From: Salinimicrobium sp.
GTDB taxonomy: Bacteria > Bacteroidota > Bacteroidia > Flavobacteriales > Flavobacteriaceae
DNA length: 35,947 nt
Direction of reading: 5' to 3'
Assembly (NCBI GenBank): GCA_024635665.1
Contig: JAGXIM010000002.1
Coordinates: forward strand, 1 to 35,947
Under the pieces are notes generated by a model. That model was not told the origin of the DNA. It ran no database searches and saw nothing but the letters and a program-made list of their open reading frames with translations. This document shows, piece by piece, positions 29,223 to 35,947 of this stretch; positions within the stretch are counted from its first letter, which is position 1; each line of letters starts with the position of its first letter. Position numbers and translations under genes: made by a program.

Positions 29223-30863
29223 TTACATCATTCCGGGCATTCCGCCGCCCATTCCTTGTGGCATTCCGCCGCCACCGGAGTTTTCTTCTTTAATATCCAC
29301 TAAAGAGCATTCGGTAGTAAGGATCATTCCAGCGACTGAAGCAGCATTTTCAAGGGCTACCCTTGTTACTTTCTTAGGATCGATAATTCCTGCTTTCATC
29401 ATGTCGACGAAAGTATTGGTTTTGGCATCATAACCGTAGTTGCCTTTGCCTTCAAGCACTTTGTTGATCACAACCGAACCTTCGCCACCGGCGTTTTCAA
29501 CGATTGTTCTCAATGGGCTTTCAATGGCACGGCTTACGATCTTGATTCCGGTAGCTTCATCTGGATTGGCAGCTTTAAGGCTTTCAAGTACAGCTTTTGC
29601 ACGTACAAGCGCTACGCCACCTCCGGCAACGATTCCTTCTTCCACAGCCGCGCGGGTTGCGTGAAGGGCATCATCCACACGGTCTTTCTTCTCTTTCATT
29701 TCAACTTCAGAAGCTGCGCCCACGTAAAGTACGGCAACCCCGCCAGCCAATTTGGCCAAACGTTCCTGAAGTTTTTCCTTATCATAATCAGAAGTTGTGG
29801 TCTCGATTTGGGATTTGATCTGGTTCACACGGGCTTTGATAGCTTCGTTGTCACCAGCACCGTTTACCACAGTTGTATTATCCTTGTCAATAGCTACTTT
29901 TTCAGCAGTACCAAGTTGATCGATGGTTGCGTTTTCAAGGGTGAAACCTCTTTCTTCAGAAATCACAGTACCGCCAGTAAGGACAGCGATGTCTTCCAAC
30001 ATTGCTTTTCTTCGGTCACCAAATCCTGGCGCCTTCACAGCAGCGATTTTTAGTGAACCTCTTAATTTGTTCACAACTAAAGTAGCAAGGGCTTCGCCGT
30101 CAACATCTTCAGCAATGATCAAAAGTGGCTTTCCGCTCTGGGCGACAGGTTCCAATACTGGAAGCAGGTCTTTCATGGCAGATATCTTCTTGTCATAGAT
30201 AAGGATGTAAGGGTCCTCAAGATCTGCAGTCATTTTCTCGCTGTTGGTCACGAAGTAAGGAGAAAGATATCCGCGGTCAAACTGCATTCCTTCCACAACA
30301 TCCACGTAAGTATCAGTTCCTTTGGCTTCTTCAACAGTAATAACGCCTTCTTTTCCTACTTTTTGGAAAGCTTCAGCAATCAATTCACCAATATGCTCAT
30401 CATTGTTGGAGGAAATAGCAGCTACCTGCTTGATTTTTTCTGAAGAATCGCCTACCTGTTGAGCTTGTTCCTTAAGGTGGGCAACCAAAGCTTGTACTGC
30501 TTTGTCAATACCTCTCTTAAGATCCATTGGGTTTGCACCGGCAGCAACATTTTTAAGGCCTTCTTTTACGATTGCCTGTGCAAGTACGGTTGCTGTGGTT
30601 GTACCGTCACCGGCGATATCATTGGTTTTGGAAGCAACTTCCTTCACCATTTGCGCGCCCATATTTTCCAGCGCATCTTCCAATTCTATTTCTTTTGCAA
30701 CGGTCACCCCATCTTTAGTGACCACAGGGGCACCAAAAGATTTGTTGATGATCACGTTACGCCCTTTTGGGCCTAGAGTTACTTTTACAGCGTTTGCCAG
30801 TGCATCCACACCGCGCTTGATCCCGTCACGGGCTTCAATGTCGTATCTAATTTCTTTAGCCAT
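29223..30863 (-). CDS. groL: Chaperonin GroEL
   Basis: '[61 protein letters not shown]', C-terminal GGM tail. Confidence 0.99.
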
Positions 30864-30971: not shown

Positions 30972-31247
30972 TTAAACTACAGCAAGTATATCGTCCTCCC
31001 TCATTATCAGGTATTCTGTGCCCTCAAGTTTGAGTTCGGTACCCGAATATTTTCCATAAAGTACGGTATCACCAACTTTAACAGTCATTTCGTGATCTTT
31101 TTTTCCGCCACCTACAGCTACTACTTTACCTTTTTGTGGTTTTTCTTTAGCCGTTTCGGGAATGTAAATACCTGATGCAGTCTGAGTCTCAGCTGCTACA
31201 GGCTCAACAAGTACTCTGTCTGAAAGAGGTTTAATGTTTAGTGCCAT
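30972..31247 (-). CDS. groS: Co-chaperonin GroES
   Basis: '[44 protein letters not shown]' and '[33 protein letters not shown]'. Confidence 0.99.
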
Positions 31248-31297
31248 TTTACAAAATTATTTTAGTTAATGAATTCTTTGATTGAACAAGCAGTAAG

Positions 31298-31312
31298 TCG
31301 AAAATTGTGCCA
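31298..31312 (-). promoter_or_regulatory. Candidate sigma54-like promoter element upstream of groES
   Basis: Minus strand TGGCAC-N5-TCGA, about 50 nt before groES ATG; -24 half matches the consensus, -12 half deviates from TTGC. Confidence 0.4.
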
Positions 31313-31313
31313 C

Positions 31314-31337
31314 TTGATAAATGCTGACATTTATCAA
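31314..31337. promoter_or_regulatory. Perfect inverted repeat upstream of groES, candidate operator
   Basis: TTGATAAATG-CTGA-CATTTATCAA, 10-bp perfect arms, 1 bp from the TGGCAC element. Confidence 0.5.
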
Positions 31338-31370
31338 AAAAAAATGCCAGCTTGTCATAAGCTGGCATTT
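31336..31370 (-). terminator. Terminator of secG (separates it from groES)
   Basis: AAATGCCAGCTT-GTCAT-AAGCTGGCATTT, 12-bp perfect arms, then a T9 tract on minus strand. Confidence 0.9.
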
Positions 31371-31393
31371 GTATAAACAAAAGAGTGTATTTT

Positions 31394-31732
31394 CTAGTCC
31401 TGTGTACCCGGATTTTGTACCGGAGCTTGAATTGGCGCAGGAACGTTGCTTTCAACTTCGGGTTCCCCGCCCATTATTTTAGATTCTCCAATGCTGTTCC
31501 CGTCCATAATAGTAACGTTGGAAAGCAGGATAAGCACCAAAAGAAGCGTAGCCAGTGCCCAGGTACTTTTGTCAAGGAAGTCTGAAGTTTTTTGGACACC
31601 ACCAACCTGGTTGGCACCTCCGCCAAAGGCAGAAGATAATCCGCCACCTTTAGGATTTTGCACCATAATTACTACTACGAGTAAAAATGCCACGATAATG
31701 ATTAATGCTAAAAAGATTGTAAACGTGCTCAT
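31394..31732 (-). CDS. secG: Preprotein translocase subunit SecG
   Basis: 'FTIFLALIIIVAFLLVVVIMVQNPKGGGLSSAFGGGANQVGGVQKTSDFLDKSTWALA'. Confidence 0.97.
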   Translation of the reverse strand: MSTFTIFLALIIIVAFLLVVVIMVQNPKGGGLSSAFGGGANQVGGVQKTSDFLDKSTWALATLLLVLILLSNVTIMDGNSIGESKIMGGEPEVESNVPAPIQAPVQNPGTQD

Positions 31733-32580
31733 TATTGTAAACTATTATTTTCTTGTAATTTTTCGATCGCCCGAATTTGGTCTGCAAAGGAACCACTTTT
31801 TTCGGGATTTTTCAAAATTAAAATTTTATATGCCTGAATAGCTTTTCTGTAATTTTTTTGTTCGAGGTAAACCCGCGCTAAAGTCTCTGTCATTAAGGAC
31901 TCAGGGTTGGTAAGACTCTCTTCGGCAAGGTTGGCTTTTTTTCCACTTTTTGAGGGATTGATCTTTGGGTTTTTTGTAATAAATTCGTTAATCAATTCAA
32001 ACTTTCTGGACTTGGCCTCATTTTGTTCGGGACTGGTCTTTTCCCGTTCAATTGGTTTTGCAGAAGCCAGTTTCAGCCATTCCGAGAAAGAATGGTTTTC
32101 CTTTTTGTTGAACGACAAGGGTTCGCCCAACTTTAAAGGATCTTCTTCCAACGGTTTTTCTTCTGTTTCTTTCCTGCGGAAAATTCCGGGATCAAACACC
32201 TGTTCCGATTCGCGTAACTTCATCTTGAGTGCCTTGTCCAGGCTCAGGTTTTCATCTGCTTCTGCTTTTTCAGAAATTGAAGTTGCCACTTGTTTTTGTT
32301 CGCGTTCCTGCTTTCTTATTTGGTTTGCTATTTCATTCTGGTTGAATTCTTCCGAGGTAATAAAATCGAACAGGATGCTGCGGTCTGTGGTATAAGCGGC
32401 TGTATTTTTTAGCTCCTTGTTGTAATGAAGGCTGTTTGCGTTTTTCAGCCCTTTTAGCCGTACCGCACGTGCTGCCTGGAAATAAGGATATTTGTGTAAA
32501 ACATCTTTTAGTGCTGCGGTTTCTTCAAAAGTTATCGCAGCAGGGTTTTGTAGCAAATATGTTATTTCTTCTTGTTTCAT
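31732..32580 (-). CDS. Hypothetical protein with C-terminal TPR-like repeat
   Basis: 'TETLARVYLEQKNYRKAIQAYKILILKNPEKSGSFADQI' TPR-like; charged low-complexity centre. Confidence 0.85.
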   Translation of the reverse strand: MKQEEITYLLQNPAAITFEETAALKDVLHKYPYFQAARAVRLKGLKNANSLHYNKELKNTAAYTTDRSILFDFITSEEFNQNEIANQIRKQEREQKQVATSISEKAEADENLSLDKALKMKLRESEQVFDPGIFRRKETEEKPLEEDPLKLGEPLSFNKKENHSFSEWLKLASAKPIEREKTSPEQNEAKSRKFELINEFITKNPKINPSKSGKKANLAEESLTNPESLMTETLARVYLEQKNYRKAIQAYKILILKNPEKSGSFADQIRAIEKLQENNSLQ

Positions 32581-33083
32581 TACCAGTTTGTGAGGGTCGC
32601 ATTAAAAATATCCTGCGTAATACGGGTAAATATCTCTTCGAGGGCCGCTGCCAAAACAGCTCCGCTCAGCTGGGCATTTGCAGGATAATCGTAATAGAAG
32701 GAGAACCTGCGCTCCAGGTCTTTTTCCGGGTCGAGGGTGTTGTAATACCGAACGTTCACCACCACAGTCAACCGGTTTTGAGCTGCTGTACTTTGTGCAG
32801 TCGCACTCATGGGGGCAACATAATAATCAATAATCTCGCCTTCATAAATCAGGTCGCCATTGGAATCGGTGAGGCTTAGGTTAGTTTGGCTCTGGATCAA
32901 GTCCTGTAGCTGCAGGGTGAAGGTGCGGTCGATGCCCGGCTCCACCTGGGCAGCGGCATTTTGAAAATAATTCACCTGAAAAGTTTCTGCGGCACCCGTG
33001 TCGGCTCCAGAAAAAGAATAGATCCCACAGGATTGCAGGGTAAAAAAGAGCAGGCCAAGAAGAAGGATTGGTATTTTTTTCAT
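32580..33083 (-). CDS. lptE: LptE-like LPS assembly lipoprotein
   Basis: Lipobox 'LLGLLFFTLQSCGIYSFSGADTGAAETFQVNYFQN', position and size typical of Bacteroidota LptE. Confidence 0.82.
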   Translation of the reverse strand: MKKIPILLLGLLFFTLQSCGIYSFSGADTGAAETFQVNYFQNAAAQVEPGIDRTFTLQLQDLIQSQTNLSLTDSNGDLIYEGEIIDYYVAPMSATAQSTAAQNRLTVVVNVRYYNTLDPEKDLERRFSFYYDYPANAQLSGAVLAAALEEIFTRITQDIFNATLTNW

Positions 33084-33109: not shown

Positions 33110-34363
33110 TTACAGGTCATATTGTTTGATCTTTCGATAGAGGGTGCGCTCGCTAATCCCGAGTTCATCGGCGGCGGCTTTGCGTTTTCCATTGTGACGC
33201 TCCAGGGATTTCTTGATGAGTTCCAGTTCTTTGTCATGCAACGAAAGGGTTTCTTCCTCCTCAATTTCTTCTGCAAAGTAATATTTATCCTGTTTTTCGG
33301 GTGAATTTTGCTGCGGAAGTTGTAACACTTCCAACTGTTCATCGGTTAATTCTTCAGAATCTATGTCCTCTTCATCGTTTCCATAGATCTTTTGGATAAG
33401 GCTTTCGTTTTTTTCCTTGACGTTTTTGTGTCCATCATTATCCATCAATTCGAGGGTCAGTTTTTTGAGGTCATGGAGGTCACTTTTCATATCAAAAAGG
33501 ACTTTGTACAAAATTTCCCGTTCATTGCTGAAGTCGTTTTCCTTCTTTTTCTCCTCAATCACCGCTGGCAGATTGCTGCCAATGCCCGGGAGGTAACTTT
33601 TCAACAATTGCCCATCAATATTTCTTTCCTGTTCCAGGACAGAAATCTGTTCGGCGATATTTCTCAACTGCCGTACATTGCCGTTCCAGCGGTACTTTTG
33701 CAAAAGTGCAACGGCATCATCTTCCAGTCGCACAGTTGGCATTTTGTACTTCATGGCAAAATCTGAAGCGAATTTCCTGAACAATAAATGAATGTCTTCT
33801 TTTCGCTCCCGTAACGGCGGAAGGTGAATTTCCACAGTACTTAACCTGTAGTAAAGATCTTCGCGGAATTTCTCTTTTTTGATAGCTTCGAACATTTCCA
33901 GGTTTGTGGCGGCAACAATGCGCACATTGGTCTTTTGCACTTTTGAAGAACCCACTTTAATGAATTCCCCGTTTTCCAGAACCCGCAACAAGCGCACCTG
34001 AGTGGTGAGAGGTAATTCCCCAACTTCATCCAGAAAAATGGTACCGCCATCGGCTACTTCAAAGTAACCATTCCTGGATTGGGAAGCACCTGTAAAAGCG
34101 CCTTTTTCATGCCCAAACAGTTCACTGTCTATAGTCCCCTCAGGAATAGCCCCGCAGTTCACAGCGATGTATTTTCCATGTTTGCGATGGGAGAGTGCAT
34201 GAATGATCTTGGGAATGCTCTCTTTTCCCACCCCGCTTTCCCCTGTAACTAGTACAGAGATATCTGTGGGCGCCACTTGAATGGCTTTTTCAACCGCCCG
34301 GTTTAATTTTTCGTCATTCCCCAGAATTCCGAAACGCTGTTTTATAGCCTGTACACTTTCCAT
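33110..34363 (-). CDS. Sigma54-interacting AAA+ transcriptional activator, no receiver domain
   Basis: Walker A 'GESGVGKE', sigma54 loop 'GAFTGA', Walker B 'GTIFLDEVGELP', C-terminal Fis HTH 'KRKAAADELGISERTLYRKIKQYDL'. Confidence 0.96.
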   Translation of the reverse strand: MESVQAIKQRFGILGNDEKLNRAVEKAIQVAPTDISVLVTGESGVGKESIPKIIHALSHRKHGKYIAVNCGAIPEGTIDSELFGHEKGAFTGASQSRNGYFEVADGGTIFLDEVGELPLTTQVRLLRVLENGEFIKVGSSKVQKTNVRIVAATNLEMFEAIKKEKFREDLYYRLSTVEIHLPPLRERKEDIHLLFRKFASDFAMKYKMPTVRLEDDAVALLQKYRWNGNVRQLRNIAEQISVLEQERNIDGQLLKSYLPGIGSNLPAVIEEKKKENDFSNEREILYKVLFDMKSDLHDLKKLTLELMDNDGHKNVKEKNESLIQKIYGNDEEDIDSEELTDEQLEVLQLPQQNSPEKQDKYYFAEEIEEEETLSLHDKELELIKKSLERHNGKRKAAADELGISERTLYRKIKQYDL

Positions 34364-34425: not shown

Positions 34426-35871
34426 TTAATTATTCTCGCTGTAACCAACTGCCTCCCCTTTCAAAGTGGCGCTGGTGCAATCATTAATTTTTACATTCAC
34501 AAAATCACCCACTTCGTAATTATCCTTCGGAAAAACGGCTACCGTGTTTTGGGTAGTTCTTCCACTCCAGTGGGCATTCGATTTTTTTGATTCTTTCTCG
34601 ATCAAAACCTCGACAGTTTTTCCAACGAACTGCTGAGTCCGGTAAAGGCTATGATCCCGTTGAAGGCTAACTATTTCTGTAAGTCTTCTTTTCTTTACTT
34701 CTTCGGGCACATCGTCCTCGAGTTTCCGGGCAGCCATTGTTCCCGGTCTTTCAGAATATGCGAACATAAATCCGTAATCATACTTCACATATTCCATGAG
34801 AGATAAAGTGTCCTGGTGATCCTCTTCAGTTTCAGTAGGGAATCCGGTGATCATATCCTGGGAGATGGCAACATCGGGAATCATTCTTTTGATGTTATCT
34901 ATCAAGGTGAAATATTCTTCGCGGGTGTGCAGGCGGTTCATTTCTTTTAAGATGCGGTCACTTCCGCTTTGTACCGGGAGGTGGATATACTTGCAAATAT
35001 TTGGGTATTTAGCCATCGCTTCGATAACGTCCAGCGTCATATCCTGCGGATTGGAAGTAGAGAAGCGAATTCTCATTTTTGGATGGGCTTCAGCAACCAG
35101 CCGAAGCAACGCAGCAAAATTGGTAGCTGTTGCTTTCTGCATTTCAGAAGCGGTTTTGAAGTTCTTTTTAAGGCCGCCGCCATACCATAAATAGCTATCC
35201 ACATTTTGCCCCAAAAGTGTGATTTCTTTAAAACCTTTTTCCGCGAGGTCGTTCACTTCTTCCAGGATGCTTTGTGGGTCTCGGCTTCGCTCCCTTCCAC
35301 GGGTGAACGGCACCACACAAAATGTGCACATATTGTCGCAGCCACGCGTGATGGAAACAAAGGCAGAAACCCCATTGCTTTGCAGGCGCACCGGCGAAAT
35401 GTCTCCATAAGTTTCATCTTTTGAAAGGATCACATTCACTGCATTCCTACCTTCCTCCACTTCGTTGATAAGATTTGGCAGGTCTTTATATGCATCGGGC
35501 CCCACTACGAGGTCCACGATTTTCTCCTCCTCAAGGAATTGTGCTTTAAGGCGTTCGGCCATACAACCTAACACGCCGACTTTCATTTTTGGATTTATCT
35601 TTTTTACAGCATTGTATTTTTCAAGCCTTTTGCGGATGGTTTGTTCGGCCTTGTCCCGAATTGAGCAGGTGTTAATAAGGACCAGGTCGGCCTCTTCCAG
35701 GTTTTGGGTAGTGCTAAAACCTTCTTTTGCAAGAATAGAAGCCACAATTTCGCTATCACTAAAATTCATTTGGCAACCATAGCTCTCGATCATCAGCTTA
35801 CGGCCGTTTTTGACCTTCGGCTCCAAAACCAAAAAACTTCCCTGTTGTTTTTCGTCTATTATCTTCTCCAT
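34426..35871 (-). CDS. miaB: tRNA-2-methylthio-N6-dimethylallyladenosine synthase MiaB
   Basis: '[21 protein letters not shown]', radical-SAM '[24 protein letters not shown]', C-terminal TRAM region. Confidence 0.98.
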
Positions 35872-35905: not shown

Positions 35906-35936
35906 CAAAGATACGGTTTTAGTTGTGATGTGACAA
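35906..35936 (-). promoter_or_regulatory. Bacteroidota sigmaA promoter upstream of miaB
   Basis: Minus strand TTG-N20-TATCTTTG. Confidence 0.65.
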
Positions 35937-35947
35937 AGTGACAGTAA

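Follow-up and report, generated by a model that had tools for sequence, protein, structure and literature searches.

A conserved sigma54 promoter, phased dyads and a linked candidate activator at groESL of a flavobacterium

The activator gene is linked to groESL

The window, a stretch of 35,947 nt from a Salinimicrobium sp. assembly of 2.16 Mb and 76% completeness, carries on its minus strand, in this order, miaB, a sigma54 activator gene, lptE, a gene labelled as a TPR protein, secG, a terminator, groES and groEL. The genes groES (30972–31247) and groEL (29223–30863) were identified by Pfam Cpn10 and TIGR02348, respectively, and secG (31394–31732) by TIGR00810. Between secG and groES lies the strong intrinsic terminator of secG (31342–31370, minus strand), with a stem of 12, a loop of 5 and a T run. 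The gene at 31732–32580 gave no Pfam or NCBIfam match and is recognised by its syntenic homologs, "TPR protein" being a label only; its position between lptE (32580–33083; PF04390) and secG is kept across the order. The first gene of the activator operon is miaB (34426–35871; TIGR01574), and the same genome encodes rpoN (PF04552 match, E 6e-53). A second activator-secG-groES locus is present in the same assembly (G000 contig C24, 1–5872; L102, L131, L134), with 84% identity to the window for the activator and 88% for groES. Sibling genomes have one copy, so C24 probably represents contamination with DNA from a relative.

A sigma54 promoter stays silent unless an activator acts on it. The gene at 33110–34363 (minus strand) encodes an enhancer-binding protein of 417 residues, which consists of an AAA+ domain with GAFTGA, an AAA lid and a Fis-type HTH, and has no N-terminal sensor domain. 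The AAA+ domain scores 224 bits against PF00158, with GESGVGKE at residue 41, GAFTGA at 88 and FLDE at 110, and the DNA-binding domain matches HTH_8 at residues 378–415. Identity as a PspF equivalog was rejected, as the protein scores 271.6 bits and the curated cut-off is 443.55. Across 91 copies, the recognition helix SERTLYRKI hardly varies. Residues ~270–310, between the AAA lid and the HTH, are also conserved (EREILYKVLFDM around 281; EREILYKVLFDMK-DL-DLK); this stretch is common to distant families, gave no Pfam match and may be a regulatory or oligomerisation segment.

An ortholog of the activator is present in 116 of 119 relatives, and the three assemblies that lack it also lack groES. 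In 99 of the 116, the gene shares its strand with groES and lies 0.3–4.7 kb upstream of it, and the order miaB-activator-lptE extends to other orders of the class. Since nearly all relatives have rpoN (119 of the 120 genomes of the search), a test based on rpoN absence is uninformative. Genomes as small as 0.34 and 0.6 Mb retain both the activator and rpoN, and the activator is their sole match at the cut-off used; in G087 (0.34 Mb), G098, G107 and G115 (0.6 Mb) this one activator is kept close to groES. We regard the product of 33110–34363 as the likely activator of the groESL sigma54 promoter. A second clear sigma54 activator is encoded outside the locus, on contig C51.

The groES promoter and its upstream dyads are conserved and helically phased

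The groES upstream regions compared here come from the genus itself, from its family, from further families of the order and from other orders of the class. Their inspection identifies a sigma54 -24 element, TGGCAC, at 31307–31312 (minus strand) and a -12 region, TCGAC, at 31297–31301, with a constant G at 31299. The motif TGGCAY-N7-G occurs in 177 of 180 Flavobacteriales groES upstream regions and also in the class-wide set across Bacteroidia, with the consensus TGGCAY-A-n-TTT-Y-T-G, which has the spacing of a -24/-12 promoter. A G stands at this spacing in all 177 promoters; the scoring rewards a -12 G, so that this full constancy arises partly by construction, which does not apply to conservation of the element as a whole. 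The base after the G is A in 41% of relatives, C in 36% and T in 22%, and neither this promoter nor those of most relatives have the C that follows the G in the classical consensus. Every element named in the preliminary description lies where that description placed it, and its TGGCAC-N5-TCGA corresponds to TGGCAC at 31312–31307, followed by AATTT-TCGA. One correction concerns TCGA, which it had taken for a failed -12 half. Only the G is constant in relatives, and because the base after it may be A, C or T, TCGA is within the normal range. The groES promoter (TGGCACAATTTTCGA) thus has the -24 GG and the -12 G at the right spacing, and both TGGCAY with its downstream G and the TGTCAG upstream of it are conserved family-wide far beyond chance. 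From the usual distance between -12 and +1, transcription is predicted to start at 31286 (minus strand), giving a leader of ~39 nt.

Two side observations concern these alignments. In several Flavobacteriaceae (L110, L111, L124 and L129), an inverted repeat, AACGCTTAAGCGTT, lies just 3' of the -12 element, near the predicted groES start. One record, L048 (CALPUN020000006.1), is titled Bifidobacterium breve; its public label looks wrong because its groES locus is Flavobacterium-like.

In F. psychrophilum, the mapped starts of groESL, dnaK, grpE-dnaJ, lon, htpG and clpB have been assigned a sigma54-type motif (PMC9723704), and the same enrichment emerges in Bacteroidota from a computational survey (PMC12316311). 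Sigma54 control of groESL is thus an established feature of the family, to which this locus adds a new instance. What the preliminary description offered as a hypothesis, the use of sigma54 at groES, is borne out by class-wide conservation, by rpoN in the genome, by the activator gene in the window and by the groESL start mapped in F. psychrophilum (PMC9723704). That groESL of this flavobacterium has a real, deeply conserved sigma54 promoter is strongly supported.

A candidate activator dyad, TTGAT-AAA-TGTCA, lies at 31325–31337 (minus strand), 17 nt upstream of TGGCAC. Its right half, within TGTCAG (31324–31329), is conserved, and in 103 of 121 promoters TGTCAG is separated from TGGCAY by a gap of 11; its left half is degenerate in this genus. 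In other families, the sequence upstream of groES contains TGWCA-N3-TGWCA, of which TGACATTATGTCA is an example. Outside the family, 73% of 44 promoters have a gap of exactly 3, versus 1.3% of shuffles, and no other gap exceeds 16%; class-wide, 49 of 72 promoters have a dyad with this gap versus 0.8% of shuffles. The dyad also occurs upstream of dnaK, where a perfect copy stands at exactly 17 nt in 11 of 11 same-genus relatives, and of clpB, where weaker copies stand at 17 and 49 nt. Scanned strictly for TGTCAG-N10-12-TGGCAY, the genome itself matches at its two groES promoters only, and the groES-only element that this suggested was corrected by the relaxed dyad at dnaK and clpB. In the very small genomes the groES dyads are intact, and dnaK and clpB of G087 have no clear dyad.

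Distances between the dyads and the -24 element cluster at 17, 28, 38–39, 47–49 and 69–70 nt. For the chaperone promoters, collapsed by family and gene, these distances follow a 10.5-bp period with R 0.85. The same period recurs, with R 0.83, in a second, class-wide set of 86 promoters, almost all of which belong to other families, and the phase agrees between the two sets (6.6 class-wide, 6.5 in the first set). Rayleigh values of 1e-14 to 1e-17 for this phasing overstate the certainty because the families are related and the sequences are not independent; the repeat of the phasing in the second set is strong. A period of 10.5 bp is what a protein facing the sigma54 polymerase would be expected to show. 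The proximal dyad is centred ~45 nt upstream of the start, closer than a usual sigma54 enhancer, which counts against its reading as an activator site.

A distal candidate dyad, TGACA-AGC-TGGCA (TGACAAGCTGGCA), is embedded in the secG terminator at 31345–31357 (minus strand), 37 nt upstream of TGGCAC, a distance that keeps it in phase with the proximal dyad and on the same helical face. Near-perfect terminator dyads are present in 86 of 135 Flavobacteriaceae promoters, this one included, either at 36–39 nt or, in an alternative arrangement, at 47–49 nt, and both arrangements are in phase; the other 49 have no distal dyad. A trade-off between the distal dyad and the left half of the proximal one, which is good in 34 of these 49 versus 29 of the 86 with a distal dyad, was set aside as confounded by ancestry. 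The terminator dyads suggest that the secG terminator may double as an operator, with shared ancestry as a partial alternative.

The operon of the activator itself begins with a sigmaA promoter, TTG-N20-TATCTTTG, at 35906–35936 (minus strand), as the preliminary description had recognised at miaB. A perfect dyad, TGTCA-CTT-TGTCA, covers the -33 TTG of this promoter (35931–35943, minus strand) and is present in 9 of 9 genomes in which the region was readable. Its placement over the -33 box suggests autorepression, that is to say, that the activator may repress its own operon.

Proposed control of groESL and competing explanations

The promoter and the dyads are conserved, the dyads are helically phased with the -24 element, and the activator gene is linked to groESL. 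The best explanation of the whole, which we hold to be quite probable, is that the linked protein binds the dyads, drives the chaperones via sigma54 and limits its own synthesis. The region upstream of groES serves as a sigma54 promoter through its -24 TGGCAC (31312–31307) and -12 G (31299), and the enhancer-binding protein encoded four genes upstream would switch it on, answering, we infer, to heat or misfolded protein. At groES it would bind TGWCA-N3-TGWCA dyads at two sites on one helical face, 17 nt (proximal) and 37 nt (distal) upstream of the -24 element. With dnaK and clpB arranged alike, stress would raise all these chaperones together. At miaB, the dyad that covers the -33 box would let the activator limit its own synthesis, and the secG terminator would have a second use as an operator. 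The degenerate left half of the proximal dyad in this genus, the 49 of 135 family promoters without a distal dyad and the second sigma54 activator on contig C51 count against this explanation.

Transcription of groESL could instead begin at a sigmaA promoter, or arrive by read-through from secG, with TGGCAC incidental. A TAnnTTTG box, TAATTTTG, does lie directly 5' of the groES ATG (31252–31259, minus strand), and a similar box (TACATTTG) is kept there in most sibling species. It stands nearly on the start codon, however, and the -33 TTG is missing 19–21 nt upstream, so that the absence of a usable sigmaA box reported in the preliminary description holds; we rejected the box as a promoter, and it may be part of the translation start region. 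The strong terminator argues against read-through, and both the class-wide conservation of the sigma54 element and the sigma54-type start mapped in F. psychrophilum (PMC9723704) make this origin of groESL transcripts very improbable. A CIRCE element was likewise rejected: the best match at groES has 8 mismatches in 18, in agreement with the earlier observation that CIRCE is absent. The assembly, at 76% completeness, yielded no hrcA. The preliminary description further proposed that a perfect inverted repeat at 31314–31337, which reads exactly TTGATAAATG-TCAG-CATTTATCAA on the minus strand, could be the operator of some heat-shock regulator. Its arms of 10 are perfect, it is found once in the 2.16-Mb assembly, and perfect inverted repeats with arms of at least 10 occur at 6 places in the window versus 0–4 in Markov-1 random copies; because such repeats are rare, base composition by itself would not be expected to produce the palindrome. 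Alignment of related groES upstream regions, which upheld the conservation of TGGCAY (177/180), did not uphold that of the repeat: pairing falls from 10/10 here to 1–8/10 in eleven sibling sequences, and the centre is crossed by the conserved TGTCAG, which belongs to the different dyad TGWCA-N3-TGWCA. An operator probably lies in the palindrome region, but the palindrome itself is scarcely credible in that role.

Two further explanations accept the sigma54 promoter and concern what the dyads are. Another regulator, such as an RprY-type response regulator or a repressor, might bind them, in which case the activator would act at other places or have no need of these sites. In EMSA, RprY of P. 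gingivalis binds the promoters of groES, dnaK and clpB, which it appears to repress, although the report gives no RprY binding motif (PMC3646045), and the Salinimicrobium genome does encode another sigma54 activator. Against this stand the 10.5-bp phasing of the dyads with the -24 element, the presence of a dyad at the miaB promoter, which heads the activator operon, the linkage of the activator to groESL and an activator HTH as conserved as the dyad, in view of which we judge a different reader of the dyads to be improbable. The dyad in the secG terminator raises a separate question, as it could be a by-product that reflects terminator sequence and common descent, leaving the proximal site as the only operator. 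Two main terminator forms are common to the family and 49 of 135 promoters lack the distal dyad, both of which are consistent with a by-product. A gap of 3 is nevertheless by far the commonest, the distances keep to one helical phase in both arrangements, which differ by a turn, and L054, L055, L084 and L109 keep the dyad despite a decayed 5' terminator arm; a by-product is therefore a serious but rather unlikely account of the distal dyad. Binding of the dyads by the linked activator remains our preferred reading.

Significance and relation to known systems

Chaperone induction in Bacteroidota without CIRCE is poorly known; sigma54 has been implicated, and in the literature searched the activator is unnamed. 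The present analysis supplies one candidate activator, together with its putative operator and a rule for the spacing. In the literature searched, which covers few subscription journals, neither the activator nor the dyad nor the phasing was found described, and prior work may exist. We lean towards the wider view that Bacteroidia have their own form of chaperone control, in which a sensor-less sigma54 activator encoded beside groESL and kept in genomes of 0.3–0.6 Mb would bind phased TGWCA-N3-TGWCA dyads at groESL, dnaK and clpB, repress its own operon and, in many Flavobacteriaceae, use the secG terminator as an operator. In flavobacterial endosymbionts with tiny genomes, the retention of rpoN has been called unusual and guessed to concern nitrogen (PMC3971599); chaperone control would offer a reason for it.

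The closest known case is the set of SM4 promoters of F. psychrophilum (PMC9723704), which share the family, the target genes and the -24/-12 elements and whose starts are mapped there. In its accessible part, that study leaves the activator open among three PF00158 proteins and does not describe an upstream dyad or a spacing rule.

HrcA/CIRCE resembles the proposed system in its target genes, groESL, and in its stress logic. That system uses a repressor, in contrast to the activator and sigma54 proposed here, where CIRCE is absent and HrcA was not found in the assembly. PspF and other sensor-less sigma54 activators likewise have an AAA+ domain with GAFTGA at the N-terminus and a Fis-type HTH at the C-terminus. 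Unlike PspF, the activator of the window has a long conserved segment between AAA lid and HTH and is linked to groESL rather than to psp genes. NorR-type enhancers have the form GTCA-N3-TGAC. The dyads share with them two half-sites and a gap of 3, bound by the Fis-type HTH of a sigma54 activator, here a candidate one. The activator of the window falls well below the NorR model cut-off (291.6 vs 476) and, unlike the half-sites of NorR enhancers, those found here are TGWCA in any orientation.
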